Shown piece after piece: positions 51,813-57,376 of a DNA stretch of 64,000 nt; the first letter of the stretch is position 1; each line of letters begins with the position of its first letter. Under the pieces are notes generated by a model. The model did no database searches. It saw only the letters and a list, made by a program, of their open reading frames with translations, and was not told the origin of the DNA. Location: positions 248,001 to 312,000 of the forward strand of contig NZ_JAKZKV010000006.1 in NCBI RefSeq assembly GCF_022808675.1, given 5' to 3'. The stretch is from Parabacteroides sp. FAFU027. GTDB lineage: Bacteria > Bacteroidota > Bacteroidia > Bacteroidales > UBA7332. Made by a program: the position numbers and the translations under genes.

Positions 51813-52319
51813 TTGAAACAGTTTGACGATATATACCGACAACACTATACCATGATTTTTCGTCTGGTATCGAAGTTTATCTCTGATCGGCAGGAGATAG
51901 AAGACGTTGTACAGGAGGTTTTTATGAAACTGTTTCTGGAAATGCAGGCAAAACGAACGATGGATTATCCGAAAACCTGGCTTTATAAGGTAGCTTCTAA
52001 TCAATGCGTAAATATCGTAGGCAGGAGACAGGAGACCTATTCTATTGATGACGCTTCAGTATATGCCCTGTGTGATAATGAATGTGTGATGCAAAAGTAT
52101 GAAGAGGACGAACAAAAGTCAGTCATCCGACAAGCTTTAGCCCGGCTTGAAGAACACGAACGCATGATAATTATACTCTATTCGGAAGGGCTTTCCTACA
52201 AGGAGATTGCAGAGATCAGCGGCGTGAAATTTACTTCCGTAGGGAAAACCCTGTCGAGGACGCTTGACAAACTTAAACCATTATTGAAAAGACAATACGA
52301 TGCAATGCTTAACAAATGA
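51813..52319 (+). CDS. ECF-family RNA polymerase sigma factor
   Basis: A 168-residue sigma-70 type ECF factor with region 2 (IYRQHYTMIFRLVSKFIS, DVVQEVFMKLF) and region 4 (YSEGLSYKEIAEISGV). The start is a TTG at 51813; no better ATG exists before region 2 begins. The stop overlaps the anti-sigma start by 20 bp, so the two are translationally coupled. It probably directs its own operon; no target promoter can be read from the sequence. Confidence 0.9.
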   Translation: MKQFDDIYRQHYTMIFRLVSKFISDRQEIEDVVQEVFMKLFLEMQAKRTMDYPKTWLYKVASNQCVNIVGRRQETYSIDDASVYALCDNECVMQKYEEDEQKSVIRQALARLEEHERMIIILYSEGLSYKEIAEISGVKFTSVGKTLSRTLDKLKPLLKRQYDAMLNK

Positions 52320-52764
52320 ACAGATACAATTGCTGATTGACGGTGAAATGAAGGAGAAACAGATGGCTGTATGTGAGGAGCATCTGTCTCATTGCCCCGA
52401 CTGCCAACGGCATTATGAAGAGCAGATGCGAAACTCTCTGCGGATTTCTGAAATGATAAACTTTACCACAGTAAAGCCGGAGCAGATTCCCGTGTTTAAT
52501 TTCCCCGAAAATAAAGCTCCGGTTAAAAAGCACTACAGCTCAATATCCATTTGGCTGAAAATAGCCGCCGTTTTAATCCCCATCATCGTTTGCTGGCAAT
52601 TCTGGCCTCAAAAAACGGAAAAGCAATTTAACCCGACGCAGGAAGCGATAATGAAATATGAACTCTGCAACAGCGTGGACGCCAATACCGCCTGGCAGGA
52701 AAACATGATTATAACGACGGTTACCGACGAAAATGGGAAAGTGATTGAATGTTCAACCAATTAA
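52300..52764 (+). CDS. Anti-sigma factor with zinc-finger domain
   Basis: A 154-residue membrane protein. The N-terminal zf-HC2/ZAS domain has the H-x3-C-x2-C motif in CEEHLSHCPDCQRHY, then a linker and one membrane segment (about 84-103, IWLKIAAVLIPIIVCW). The periplasmic tail is ~50 residues. It starts inside the sigma gene. It should hold the sigma factor at the membrane until a signal arrives. Confidence 0.88.
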   Translation: MQCLTNEQIQLLIDGEMKEKQMAVCEEHLSHCPDCQRHYEEQMRNSLRISEMINFTTVKPEQIPVFNFPENKAPVKKHYSSISIWLKIAAVLIPIIVCWQFWPQKTEKQFNPTQEAIMKYELCNSVDANTAWQENMIITTVTDENGKVIECSTN

Positions 52765-52775
52765 AATAGTATGTT

Positions 52776-53168
52776 ATGAAATGCGTAAAATGGATTTTTC
52801 TGGTGATGCTTATCTCTTTTCCCGCGATCATGCAAGGTCAGACAAAAGACGAGAAATTGTCAGAATTGAAAGAGATACTAAAAAGGTCGCTTTATCAGTC
52901 TGATGTGCAGATTGATAAACAGGGGATAATAAATCGTTCCGATAACAATGGAAATCGATTCAGGTATTCCCTTGAGGATATCCGTGAAGTATCTTCAGAC
53001 TTTGATGGTTTCCACAATCTGTTGATTTCTATGAAGGAGGAAAAATCTGTTCAGCCCATTGTCAATGGGCAGGAGAGCGAGCTGAAAATGAATGTCTTCT
53101 CGTTTGCAAATCAGGAGGATTGCGAAAAGGCAAAGGGGATATTGAATGAACTGATTCAGATGAAGTAG
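52776..53168 (+). CDS. Hypothetical periplasmic protein of the sigma operon
   Basis: A 130-residue protein with a signal peptide (about 1-22, ending IMQGQ). The mature part contains DVQIDKQGIINRSDNNGN and DIREVSSDFDGFHNLLISM; it may be a small beta-rich fold. No known domain recognised. It lies 11 bp after the anti-sigma gene and 24 bp before the propeller gene, so it belongs to the same operon. Confidence 0.75.
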   Translation: MKCVKWIFLVMLISFPAIMQGQTKDEKLSELKEILKRSLYQSDVQIDKQGIINRSDNNGNRFRYSLEDIREVSSDFDGFHNLLISMKEEKSVQPIVNGQESELKMNVFSFANQEDCEKAKGILNELIQMK

Positions 53169-53192
53169 TTTTTCAGGCTAAATAAAACTCAA

Positions 53193-54488
53193 ATGAAACG
53201 ACTATTTTTTTTATTTCTCATCGTATTGGCGCTGTCCGTACAGGCGCAACATCGGAGTTCGATGTACAAAGATGGTGAGATACAGTTAGTGCCCGATGCG
53301 GCTTACGCAAAACATGCTGACCTGAACCAGCTTTTTCCGGACGCCAGTCAGTCCGAACCGTCTAAAAGCAGGGGAGCTGTACGCAGTATGGTCGTTGCGC
53401 CAGATGGATCTGTCTTTATGAGTCTGCGCACAAAGCATTTGATCTGCAAGTTTGATAAGCAGGGTAATTTCGTAAAGACCTTTGGTAAAAAAGGGGGAAA
53501 GAAGCCATGTGACTTTATTTATGAGCCCACTGTGCAGGGGATACTGGATGGAAAATATGTATATACCATAGCGGTGGATGGCCGTATGCACTTCTTCGAT
53601 CTGAATGGCAAATGGGTGAAAACGATTACTCTGAAGTATATGCCGCTCAATACCTATCCGCTAAAAGGCGGTAAAATAGCTATTGTTGGATTTAGTGTCG
53701 GTAAGCAGAACCGGACCTCTGTTCGGATTCTGGACTTTAGGAATGGTGTAGAGAGGGAGATCTTTTCTGAAATACAACCTAACCAGGATAAAGCAAGTAT
53801 TGTCATTACGCCCAACTCCAGAGGTGAAATCGATAACGAGGGCAAATACCATGTGGCAACTTCCTATAAACCGCCTGTTATCGGCTGTTTACTGCCTTTC
53901 TCACACGATATGTATTACAGGGTAAGGATTACGTCTTCAACGGACGGTAATCTCATCGTGGCAAATCCTTCAAACGGGCAGATTGCGGTGTATAATCCTT
54001 TAGGTCAGAAGATAAAACAATTCGTAGCAGACATCAAACCGGAAGTCATCAGCAAAGAAGATAGGGAAGAGTATTACCAGAAAGCGGTCAAAGAACTTAA
54101 AAAGCTGGAGGAGGATGTGCAGAAATCCGACAAAAACAAGGAGTATTGGAACGAATATATTTTCCAATACAAAGCGCAGCTCTATAAATTCAGGGAGCCT
54201 GCCAGTTACCCCGACCATCTGCCTTACTTCTCGGAAATGATGATTGATGAGGATGATAATATTCTTCTGTTCCGCTTTACCCGCGAAGAGGGGTCGAATA
54301 AATTTGATGTTTACACTTATGATCATAAAGGCGTCCGGATTGCTTCATCCAGTTTTGTCTCAGATAGTTATGAGTTGAAAATCAATCCGGCTGTTTTCAG
54401 GTTTCACAATCGTTGTATCTATTCCTATGTCAGCAAAAAGGATGCAGGAAATGGTGGGTATGAGTTGGTGAGATTCAACCTTCGATGA
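53193..54488 (+). CDS. Six-bladed beta-propeller protein (NHL-like)
   Basis: A 431-residue exported protein (signal peptide about 1-18, ending VQAQ). Repeated blades with the pattern DGSVFMSLRTKHLICKFD and GNLIVANPSNGQIAVYN fit the six-bladed propeller family common in Bacteroidota. A charged helical insert (EEYYQKAVKELKKLEEDVQK) interrupts the propeller. As the last gene of the sigma/anti-sigma operon it may be the regulated output or the signal sensor; neither is shown. Confidence 0.82.
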   Translation: MKRLFFLFLIVLALSVQAQHRSSMYKDGEIQLVPDAAYAKHADLNQLFPDASQSEPSKSRGAVRSMVVAPDGSVFMSLRTKHLICKFDKQGNFVKTFGKKGGKKPCDFIYEPTVQGILDGKYVYTIAVDGRMHFFDLNGKWVKTITLKYMPLNTYPLKGGKIAIVGFSVGKQNRTSVRILDFRNGVEREIFSEIQPNQDKASIVITPNSRGEIDNEGKYHVATSYKPPVIGCLLPFSHDMYYRVRITSSTDGNLIVANPSNGQIAVYNPLGQKIKQFVADIKPEVISKEDREEYYQKAVKELKKLEEDVQKSDKNKEYWNEYIFQYKAQLYKFREPASYPDHLPYFSEMMIDEDDNILLFRFTREEGSNKFDVYTYDHKGVRIASSSFVSDSYELKINPAVFRFHNRCIYSYVSKKDAGNGGYELVRFNLR

Positions 54489-54540
54489 ATGGAGTAGAAG
54501 GTTTTGTTGAGAAATAAGAGGGTAACAATACAACTTTGAA

Positions 54541-54595
54541 CGCAAAGGCGCAAAAACGCGAAGGAATAAACACTTTGCGTTTTTGCGCCTTTGCG
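54541..54595. repeat. 23 bp inverted repeat with 9-nt loop
   Basis: CGCAAAGGCGCAAAAACGCG and its partner TTTGCGTTTTTGCGCCTTTG pair with one mismatch over 23 bp. It lies between the propeller gene and the CBS gene and could act as a terminator or an interspersed Bacteroidota palindrome. Confidence 0.85.
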
Positions 54596-54712
54596 TTTGA
54601 TCTCTTTATATAATGGGAGGTTCAATAACTTTTAAAGCAATTCGCTTCAATCCCTGAACCGAATATTGAAACGTTAACAGCCTGATGTGGCTATTCCTGC
54701 GAAAATAAGTAG

Positions 54713-54720
54713 TACTTTTG
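54713..54720 (+). promoter_or_regulatory. -7 element TACTTTTG for the CBS/Nramp operon
   Basis: Exact TAnnTTTG match. The predicted start near 54727 leaves a ~125-nt untranslated leader. Confidence 0.6.
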
Positions 54721-54726
54721 CACCGC

Positions 54727-54851
54727 AAATAAAAATCTTTATTCCAAATGGACGGAGACCCGGCACATATATTCATATTACTAACCTGACCTGGCCGGGG
54801 AATTACCTCTTCGTAACCTCCTGCTGAGTCATAACGCAAGGAGGTGACTTC
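54727..54851 (+). ncRNA. Structured 5' leader with sequestered ribosome-binding site (candidate riboswitch)
   Basis: CCCGGC (54759-54764) pairs with GCCGGG (54794-54799); outside it ACGGAG (54752-54757) pairs with CTTCGT (54809-54814), giving an aptamer-like arm. Next, ACCTCCT (54816-54822) is exactly complementary to AGGAGGT (54839-54845), the unusually strong Shine-Dalgarno 6 nt before the ATG. Translation should be off when that hairpin forms. I do not recognise a known class: the M-box and yybP-ykoY signatures are not evident. Ligand Mg2+ is a guess from the downstream genes. Confidence 0.5.
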
Positions 54852-56120
54852 ATGACATCTTTCACAACCTTTTACCTGAGTCGCATTATCGGCTCACGCG
54901 TTTATGATGCGCACAACCAATTTGTGGGCATTGTAAAAGACCTGTTCATTCTTCCCAATTATATATCGGAAGGAGTGGAGCGCCCTTTAGTTGCAGCGAT
55001 TAAGCTCAAAAAGGGGAAAACAACTTTGATTTATTCATTTGACGGTTTTGTTGTCACAAAAGTCAACGGGAAAATATCAGTTGCCTGTGAAGAACTGATT
55101 CCTTATGACCAGGAAAAACTGGACGATGGTGTTTTCCTCGGGGAAGGCATTTTGGATAAACAGATCGTAGACCTGAACGGTCGTAAACTGGTTCGGGTGA
55201 ATGACATACGACTGGTGTCGGTACCTACGGGAACTTTTGCACTGGCAGTGGATATCGGAGTGGAAGGATTGCTTCGCCGCATTGGCCTTGCCAAGCCGTT
55301 AAAGAAATTCCTGCTCCTGTTCCGGGTAACCATTCCTGCTAAATTTATCGTGTGGGATGACATCGAGGCGGTGGATTTCTCCAATTTCAATATCAAACTT
55401 TCCAAAAGCCATAAGAAGCTCGAAACACTTCACCCTTCTGACCTTGCCGATATTATCGAGGATTTGGGCAAACAGACCCGTCTCTCTGTGTTCGAAGCGT
55501 TGGATGAAGAGAAGGCTGCCGATGTGATGGAAGAGCTGGAGGTAGAAGCTCAGATTCACCTACTGGAAAACCTTTCAGTCGCAAAAGCTGCCGATGTGCT
55601 TGAAAAGATGCCGGCAGATGAGGTGGCCGACATTCTCGATGAGCTCGAAGAGGAAAAAGCGGAACAAATCCTTCGGGAGATGGAGAAAGATTCTTCCGAA
55701 GAGGTGCGCGAGCTGTTGGAATATCCCGACGATTCAGTGGGAAGTATCATGTCCACCGAATACCTTTCCTTCAATAAGGATAATACCGTTGAGGAGGTGT
55801 TAGCGGAGCTTCGCCTGAAGAAACCGGAAGCGGAAGAATTATATAACCTCTTTGTGGTCAATGATAAAGAGAAGCTGATTGCGACCTTCTCGCTTCGCGA
55901 CCTGGTGATTTCAGAACCCAATGCAGCTATCAGCGAGATCATGAAACCATCACCGGTGCACTTGCACGACGATCAGGAGATTAACGAGATTGCCGAATTT
56001 ATTTCCAAATACAACCTGTTGGCTATCCCGGTAGTTGATAAGGAAAATATCCTGCAAGGAATGGTGGTTATCGACGACGTGGTCGAGGACTTGATTGGTA
56101 AACGCAAAACGAATAAATAA
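54852..56120 (+). CDS. Soluble PRC-barrel / MgtE_N / CBS protein
   Basis: A 422-residue cytoplasmic protein. Residues ~1-185 carry two PRC-barrel-like beta segments (RIIGSRVYDAHNQFVGIV, LVRVNDIRLVSV). Residues ~190-290 are the MgtE N-domain helical repeats (HPSDLADIIEDLG, KMPADEVADILDELEEEKA). Residues ~300-420 hold a CBS pair (VGSIMSTEYLSF, ISEIMKPSPVHL). In MgtE these N/CBS domains sense Mg2+ and gate the pore, but here there is no membrane domain. The Nramp-like gene begins 14 bp later, so this is probably its regulator. Confidence 0.85.
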   Translation: MTSFTTFYLSRIIGSRVYDAHNQFVGIVKDLFILPNYISEGVERPLVAAIKLKKGKTTLIYSFDGFVVTKVNGKISVACEELIPYDQEKLDDGVFLGEGILDKQIVDLNGRKLVRVNDIRLVSVPTGTFALAVDIGVEGLLRRIGLAKPLKKFLLLFRVTIPAKFIVWDDIEAVDFSNFNIKLSKSHKKLETLHPSDLADIIEDLGKQTRLSVFEALDEEKAADVMEELEVEAQIHLLENLSVAKAADVLEKMPADEVADILDELEEEKAEQILREMEKDSSEEVRELLEYPDDSVGSIMSTEYLSFNKDNTVEEVLAELRLKKPEAEELYNLFVVNDKEKLIATFSLRDLVISEPNAAISEIMKPSPVHLHDDQEINEIAEFISKYNLLAIPVVDKENILQGMVVIDDVVEDLIGKRKTNK

Positions 56121-56134
56121 AAGGAGACCCCGGA

Positions 56135-57376
56135 ATGTTTAAGAATAAGAAACTATGGAGCCGGATCGGCCTGTTCCTGGCTATCCTTGGGCCGGGAATC
56201 ATTACCGGAAGCGTGGATAATGATGCGGGAGGTATCACTACCTATGCTGTAAGCGGTGCGGTGTATGGCTATAACATGATTTGGACGTTGATTCCCTCCT
56301 TTATCGTACTGATAATTATTCAGGAGATGAATGCCCGTATGGGTATCGTAACCGGCAAAGGTTTGGCTGATTTGATTCGTGAGAATGCCGGCGTGAAAAT
56401 TACCTTCCTGATATTCATCGGATTATTGATTGCAGATATTGGCAACACTACGACCGAATTTGCCGGTGTGGCGGGAAGTCTTGAAGTGTTTGGCGTCAGT
56501 AAATATATATCGGTCCCGTTGGTTGGGGCGTTGGTCTGGATACTTGTGGTAAAAGGAACTTATCAGCTTGCGGAACGGATCTTTCTGATTTTTAGCGTCT
56601 CATTATTGACTTATGTGGTTTCTGCTATTATGGGACATCCACACTGGGGAGAGATTGGAACCGCGATTGTTCATCCGCAGGTGGAGATCAACTCAAAAAG
56701 TCTGGCGATGATGATCGGAATTGTCGGTACTACTATTGCTCCCTGGATGCAGTTTTACATGCAATCGTCTGTGATTGAAAAGGGTTTGGAGATTAAGAAC
56801 TTCAAATACTCGATGATTGATATTGTGGTGGGATGTATTGCAACTGTGGTGGTGGCTTTCTTCATCATTGTGGCGTGCGCATCGACTCTGCACGAAAAAG
56901 GCATTCAAATCAATGAAGCAAAAGATGCGGCATTGGCACTGAAGCCGCTGGCAGGAGAGTTTGCATCACAAGTATTTGCCTTTGGTTTGTTTGTTGCTTC
57001 GATATTCTCGGCGACGATTTTGCCATTGGCCACTGCTTTCTATGTTTGCGAGGCGTTTGGCTTTGAGGCGGGTATTGATAAAAAATGGGAAGAGGCGCCT
57101 GAGTTCTATGTGCTTTATACGATAATTCTGGTTCTTTCGGTATTGATAATCCTTTGGCCGAATGCACCGCTGATTGCAATCTCGCTATGGTCGCAGGTCA
57201 TCAACGGATTGCTGTTGCCGGTGGTACTGGTCAGTATGATGTTACTGGTCAATAACAAAAAGATCATGGGTGAATATGTCAATAAGCCTTTGCAGAATGT
57301 AATCGGCTGGGGAGCGGTGACCGTATTGATCGGATTGACCGTGACGTTGTTGGTGATGCCTTTGTTTGGGAAATAA
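56135..57376 (+). CDS. Nramp-related transporter, NRMT-like (candidate Mg2+ transporter)
   Basis: A 413-residue Nramp-fold membrane protein with about 11 segments. Helix 1 reads SVDNDAGGITTY, so Asp30 is kept but the Asn of DPGN is Gly33; helix 6 reads GTTIAPWMQFYMQ, so the Met of MPH is Ala. Loss of the soft Met ligand is the mark of the NRMT magnesium clade described in Clostridia and Eggerthella. The canonical mntH at 39.7 kb keeps both residues. It is 14 bp after the MgtE_N/CBS gene. Mg2+ as substrate is inference. Confidence 0.85.
   Translation: MFKNKKLWSRIGLFLAILGPGIITGSVDNDAGGITTYAVSGAVYGYNMIWTLIPSFIVLIIIQEMNARMGIVTGKGLADLIRENAGVKITFLIFIGLLIADIGNTTTEFAGVAGSLEVFGVSKYISVPLVGALVWILVVKGTYQLAERIFLIFSVSLLTYVVSAIMGHPHWGEIGTAIVHPQVEINSKSLAMMIGIVGTTIAPWMQFYMQSSVIEKGLEIKNFKYSMIDIVVGCIATVVVAFFIIVACASTLHEKGIQINEAKDAALALKPLAGEFASQVFAFGLFVASIFSATILPLATAFYVCEAFGFEAGIDKKWEEAPEFYVLYTIILVLSVLIILWPNAPLIAISLWSQVINGLLLPVVLVSMMLLVNNKKIMGEYVNKPLQNVIGWGAVTVLIGLTVTLLVMPLFGK

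Follow-up and report, generated by a model that had tools for sequence, protein, structure and literature searches.

A candidate Mg2+-responsive leader-peptide attenuator ahead of a CBS protein–NRMT operon in Bacteroidota

In the 64,000-nucleotide stretch of Parabacteroides sp. FAFU027 DNA analysed here (the window), two genes separated by 14 nt follow a leader that contains a putative promoter, a short upstream open reading frame (uORF) and several segments that can pair with one another in alternative ways (Table 1). The first gene encodes a soluble CBS protein and the second, nrmT, a transporter related to the Nramp family. An earlier note on this DNA had described the leader as a structured RNA that masks a strong Shine–Dalgarno sequence (SD); the promoter, the uORF and the helix that competes with the masking hairpin (helix 2:3) were absent from it.

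Table 1. Features of the leader and operon, with coordinates in the window
Feature	Position	Strand	Description	Remarks
Promoter −7 element	54713..54720	+	Bacteroidota-type, TACTTTTG (TANNTTTG)	TANNTTT[GA] conserved in leaders
uORF, leader peptide	54748..54789	+	13 codons, MDGDPAHIFILLT and stop; without SD	Conserved M-D-[DE]-[GD]-P-A; third-position-biased substitutions
uORF codons 2–5	54751..54762	+	Asp-Gly-Asp-Pro, presumed ribosome-destabilising acidic/proline motif	Acidic and proline start conserved
Region 1	54759..54764	+	CCCGGC, can pair with region 2 (54794–54799, GCCGGG)	Window fold; optional
Region 2	54787..54800	+	TGACCTGGCCGGGG, holds the uORF stop (TGA); 5′ strand of the anti-masking helix 2:3	Covaries
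Region 3	54816..54831	+	ACCTCCTGCTGAGTCA, anti-SD	Pairs with region 2 (54818–54831) or region 4 (54816–54822)
Region 4	54838..54847	+	AAGGAGGTGA, extended SD	Masked by helix 3:4 (54816–54822 with 54839–54845)
CBS gene	54852..56120	+	Soluble, 422 aa; PRC-barrel-type domain(s) at the N-terminus, an MgtE N-domain and paired CBS domains	No pore
nrmT	56135..57376	+	Nramp-related Mg2+ transporter (by sequence), 413 aa	

The product of the CBS gene matches the MgtE N-domain and CBS families (MgtE_N and CBS), and also the cytosolic domain of MgtE structures. The PRC-barrel falls below the Pfam cut-off in the window protein and is present in all 38 homologs tested, with a best value of 4e-9. A predicted model of the protein, of which the domains alone were used (pTM 0.43, inter-domain confidence low), shows the first ~170 residues as beta-rich domains. 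The MgtE pore domain PF01769 is absent from the protein and was found nowhere in this genome, which has two corA genes elsewhere. The earlier note's account of the first gene, as the MgtE_N and CBS parts of MgtE without a pore, is thus borne out, and the candidate role of the protein as an MgtE transporter is ruled out, as it comprises MgtE_N and CBS only, without the transmembrane pore.

The second gene was correctly recognised in the same note as an Nramp with an altered metal site, and it is clearly an NRMT, the Mg2+-type Nramp, as judged from its sequence. NrmT scores 385 bits against EleNRMT (7qia) and 92 bits against the best MntH, and the assignment was made on these bit scores. When aligned to 7qia and MntH, its metal-site positions read DAGG and TTIA, the latter followed by PW, and thus contain DxxG in TM1 and TxxA/T in TM6, replacing DxxN and A/CxxM; the DxxG/TxxA signature of NRMTs was defined previously (PMC8806188). 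The order of CBS gene and then nrmT is kept in nearly all related loci. That an NRMT can be paired with an MgtE-type protein encoded by its own gene, thought at first to be undescribed, has been known since 2014, when Shin et al. reported that a gene for an MgtE N-terminal domain adjoins most nrmT genes (PMC4072509). Co-expression of the MgtE-N gene brought no better rescue by the transporter of A. capsulatum (PMC4072509). The CBS protein studied here may gate or tune NrmT. The SD of nrmT itself (56121–56134) is moderately strong (−9.3 kcal/mol) and is also unusual when set against other genes of the window.

On the upstream side, a row of genes at 51813–54488 would encode, from their translations only, ECF sigma factor-like, zinc-finger anti-sigma-like and secreted 6-bladed-propeller-like proteins. 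Between the upstream gene and the operon promoter lies a near-perfect long inverted repeat at 54530–54600 (ACGCAAAGGCGCAAAAACGC ... GCGTTTTTGCGCCTTTGCGT), perhaps a terminator serving both directions, perhaps a dispersed repeat.

The leader was compared in 79 loci, namely the window itself, four relatives that a genome search had turned up and 74 drawn from public genomes; a few of these may be one genome counted twice, and an 80% identity filter removes such duplicates. In 73 of the 79, an ATG uORF of 9–23 codons lies at the same place, −93 to −122 nt. Other uORF peptides are MDEGPASILFINLI, MDDDPANILI, MDPYPARNNSVIIP, MDEGEPNILLINTRA and MEEGSSRNKLFILM, with one further example from outside the class, MDDDPGGLTNLNNHE (L121). 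Residue 2 is acidic (Asp or Glu) without exception (73/73), codon 3 is GAC, GAA, GAT or GAG in 68 uORFs, and codon 5 is CCT, CCG or CCC, again in 68. Two or more acidic residues in positions 2–5 together with a proline in positions 3–6 occur in 68 of the 73, the exceptions being three uORFs without proline (MEEGSS) and two with a single acidic residue (MDPYP). Such an acidic and proline start is found in ~1% of the short ATG ORFs of the same loci, which served as the control, a share made up largely of the uORFs themselves. When codons 2–6 were compared between the 55 leaders less than 80% identical, differences fell at codon positions 1, 2 and 3 in 9.5, 18 and 47% of comparisons, respectively. 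This pattern of substitution indicates that the short acidic/proline peptide is under selection at the protein level. No SD precedes the uORF (median −1.5 kcal/mol).

The uORF is not universal. Some homologous operons (L095, L105 and L107) are without it, and in L107 the promoter sits directly 5′ of the SD. Another locus, L077, has no ATG uORF, and ATA stands where the uORF ATG would be (ATAGATGACGACCC). In two loci from more distant Bacteroidota (L122 and L123) the CBS gene is present and there is no acidic uORF; MKSTPG followed by a stop lies just upstream in L123, and none was recognised in L122. Neither of the corA genes in this genome shows such a leader, nor do the MgtE genes of relatives. 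When 395 genomes belonging to the class were scanned for the same uORF before other genes, matches turned up only inside or beside unrelated genes, but this is a weak negative, as the pattern used missed the window's own uORF with its Gly3.

The two ends of the leader are conserved as well. Of 73 leaders, 71 carry the element TANNTTT[GA] no more than 62 nt from the uORF, at a median of 26 nt ahead of it, as compared with 6% of random 62-nt windows, and the transcript is predicted to start at about 54725–54730. At the 3′ end, pairing between the 16S tail and the SD of the CBS gene amounts to −17.0 kcal/mol for the window, and its median over the 73 leaders is −15.7; among the 36 other window genes, used as the reference, the median is −1.3 and the best −8.3 kcal/mol. 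Ribosomes of Bacteroidia reportedly ignore SDs, their anti-SD being hidden by bS21, bS18 and bS6, and rpsU of Flavobacterium is a known exception whose extended SD is read by ribosomes lacking bS21 (PMC9976891). The SD of the uORF-less L095, L105 and L107 is still strong (−13.4 to −15.3), which makes it probable that selection acts on the SD in its own right, beyond its part as a pairing partner.

Helices 2:3 and 3:4 have region 3 in common and are mutually exclusive, and the uORF stop codon falls in or beside the region 2 strand of helix 2:3. Conservation of pairing was assessed by comparing the native pairing energy with that of partners swapped between species, the segments being kept strictly separate, in 51–53 non-redundant leaders. 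This test was preferred to formal pair counting on a MAFFT alignment of the leaders, in which the anti-SD stretch was misaligned between subgroups. Native partners pair better than swapped ones in both helix 2:3 (z −7.8 to −9.0) and helix 3:4 (z −6.3 to −7.9), with p ≤ 0.00005 in each case. The control between non-neighbours, 1:4, is null in this test, and the control 2:4 is weak or null (z −0.7 to −2.2). Relatives keep both helices while their sequences differ, with 2:3 stems of the AUAUAGCAGG/CUUUGCUAUAU type and 3:4 stems of the CACUUCCU/AGGAGGUG or UUGCUUCC/GGAGGCAA type. The earlier note had singled out two stems to be checked for covariation. The exact pairing by which ACCTCCT (54816–54822) masks AGGAGGT (54839–54845) is confirmed, this hairpin recurring and covarying in relatives. 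The other stem, CCCGGC (54759–54764) with GCCGGG (54794–54799), does exist in the window but fails to covary: in the swap test a leader's own region 2 is no better a partner for region 1 than the region 2 of another species, which holds too when leaders are grouped by uORF length, and stem 1:2 is ruled out as a conserved element.

Folding of the leader with a ribosome in place suggests how the two helices may alternate. In the window, helix 2:3 amounts to −14.5 kcal/mol when the SD has not yet been made and a ribosome stands near codon 5, and with the ribosome at the uORF stop 3:4 alone remains. In 66 of 73 leaders the SD is modelled as more accessible when the ribosome stands at codon 5 than when it occupies the stop codon (p 2e-11), these being the positions of highest and lowest accessibility, and this effect at codon 5 is lost when region 2 is shuffled (0.23 falling to 0.09). 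The absolute accessibilities are low, close to zero in the window, and at equilibrium helix 3:4 wins in the window even when region 2 is free; the switch must therefore, we infer, act kinetically, during transcription, as attenuators generally do. The uORF and the switch are well supported by these comparisons.

The leader thus displays what is expected of a known class of attenuator, namely a short ORF conserved as coding sequence, early acidic residues and mutually exclusive structures downstream. We consider it to be a translational attenuator built on a leader peptide and responsive to Mg2+, with a probability of about 0.7. Transcription would begin just 5′ of the 13-codon uORF. When Mg2+ is sufficient, the uORF would be translated through to its stop, where the terminating ribosome covers region 2 and blocks helix 2:3; region 3 would then pair with region 4, masking the SD of the CBS gene and turning the CBS-nrmT operon off. 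When Mg2+ is low, ribosomes would pause or drop off at the acidic and proline codons 2–5, leaving region 2 free to pair with region 3 once the latter is transcribed, so that the SD stays open and both the sensor protein and the NRMT importer are made. Low Mg2+ is proposed as the signal because the operon encodes an NRMT and because acidic/proline N-termini destabilise ribosomes at low Mg2+ (MgtL, CorL and MgtQ). At the motif itself, abortion of translation seems more probable than stalling. That the locus forms one Mg2+-homeostasis unit under RNA-based control, as the earlier note held, is well supported, although the control would lie in a leader-peptide attenuator with its uORF and not in a plain structured leader.

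The same attenuator might answer to something else, with pausing at the Asp-Glu-Gly-Pro-Ala codons of the uORF reporting the supply of EF-P or ABC-F proteins, the charging of proline tRNA, ribosome stress or another metal. The architecture names no signal, proline stands at codon 5 in 68 of 73 uORFs, and mgtM and mgtP of Salmonella respond to ATP and charged tRNA-Pro and not directly to Mg2+ (PMC8092293); the NrmT of A. capsulatum, moreover, acted as a Mn2+ transporter (PMC4072509). However, there is one proline and there are no runs of codons, and the best-conserved property is the acidity at codons 2–4, the very feature through which ribosomes are destabilised at low Mg2+ (PMC11282234, PMC8092293). 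The target gene is, in addition, an NRMT with the Mg2+-type DxxG/TxxA site (PMC8806188). A signal other than Mg2+ is on balance unlikely.

A metal-binding RNA controlling the operon, as the structured leader of the earlier note would suggest, with the uORF incidental to it, is very improbable. An M-box precedes NRMT operons in Clostridia (PMC4072509) and the present leader is structured, but the Rfam search advised in the earlier note produced no family for the leader even at relaxed threshold, and in the window and 20 related loci no M-box or other family reached the gathering score except for tRNAs. The relaxed-threshold matches at 54525–54641 stem from the unrelated inverted repeat upstream. 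Also against a riboswitch are the coding-type conservation inside the uORF, the position of its stop codon within helix 2:3, the lack of covariation in stem 1:2 and the short competing helices, among which no conserved aptamer-like junction was seen. Scarcely credible is a constitutive mRNA with a strong SD, a chance hairpin and a uORF that is a fossil or untranslated, for although the folding energy of the leader as a single sequence is marginal (z −1.79) and a few homologs without the uORF still have the SD, two exclusive helices covary and coding conservation is seen across many families.

Attenuation by the same logic has been demonstrated for mgtQ-mgtB of Salmonella (PMC8092293) and likewise for MgtL of E. 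coli (PMC11282234). In mgtQ-mgtB, a short ORF with early acidic residues (Asp2 and Glu5) precedes a Mg2+ transporter gene, stems 1:2 and 3:4 compete with 2:3, the RBS of the transporter gene lies within 3:4, and control is translational (PMC8092293). It differs in its place within a PhoP-controlled operon, where it sits between mgtC and mgtB, and in having an SD for the uORF, a P-type ATPase as transporter and a functional stem 1:2 (PMC8092293), whereas in the Bacteroidota leader the uORF is at the 5′ end of the operon and has no SD, the target SD is strong and stem 1:2 is unsupported. No sequence relation was seen between the two. MgtL-mgtA and CorL-corA of E. coli and Salmonella share the acidic/proline N-terminus (EPDP in MgtL), and full translation of their leader peptides turns the Mg2+ transporter gene off (PMC11282234, PMC11552253). 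Their output is mainly Rho-dependent termination of transcription (PMC11282234, PMC11552253), as opposed to the SD masking proposed here, and they belong to another phylum and serve another transporter family. The M-box ahead of nrmT in Clostridia and Deltaproteobacteria is also an RNA-based Mg2+ control of an NRMT operon with an MgtE-N-domain gene, but it is a Mg2+-binding aptamer (PMC4072509), of which none was found in the Bacteroidota leader. EleNRMT of Eggerthella lenta (7qia), of the same clade as NrmT and with the same DxxG/TxxA site, comes from another phylum (PMC8806188). We found no report in the open-access literature of an acidic/proline leader-peptide attenuator on an NRMT operon of Bacteroidota; enterobacteria are among the systems in which ribosome destabilisation has been demonstrated, and the same literature yielded no case from Bacteroidota.

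If the Mg2+-responsive attenuator is real, the sensing of Mg2+ through destabilisation of the ribosome by a nascent peptide, described only for enterobacteria in the papers found, would reach into Bacteroidota and involve a different transporter family. The stability of the ribosome would then look like a Mg2+ gauge that has been recruited repeatedly. The attenuator would take the place of the M-box found ahead of nrmT in other phyla. The ~70 natural variants of the leader peptide form a mutational series for the importance of the residues at codons 2–6, and the conserved, very strong SD of this operon, in a phylum whose ribosomes for the most part ignore SDs, offers a ready test gene for anti-SD occlusion. 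It is even conceivable, though quite doubtful, that the operon is held by two keys, the masked SD being readable solely by ribosomes with a free anti-SD, such as those lacking bS21. Were this so, Mg2+ starvation would both abort translation of the uORF and change which ribosomes start on the operon, amounting to a specialised-ribosome response to Mg2+ in Bacteroidota.
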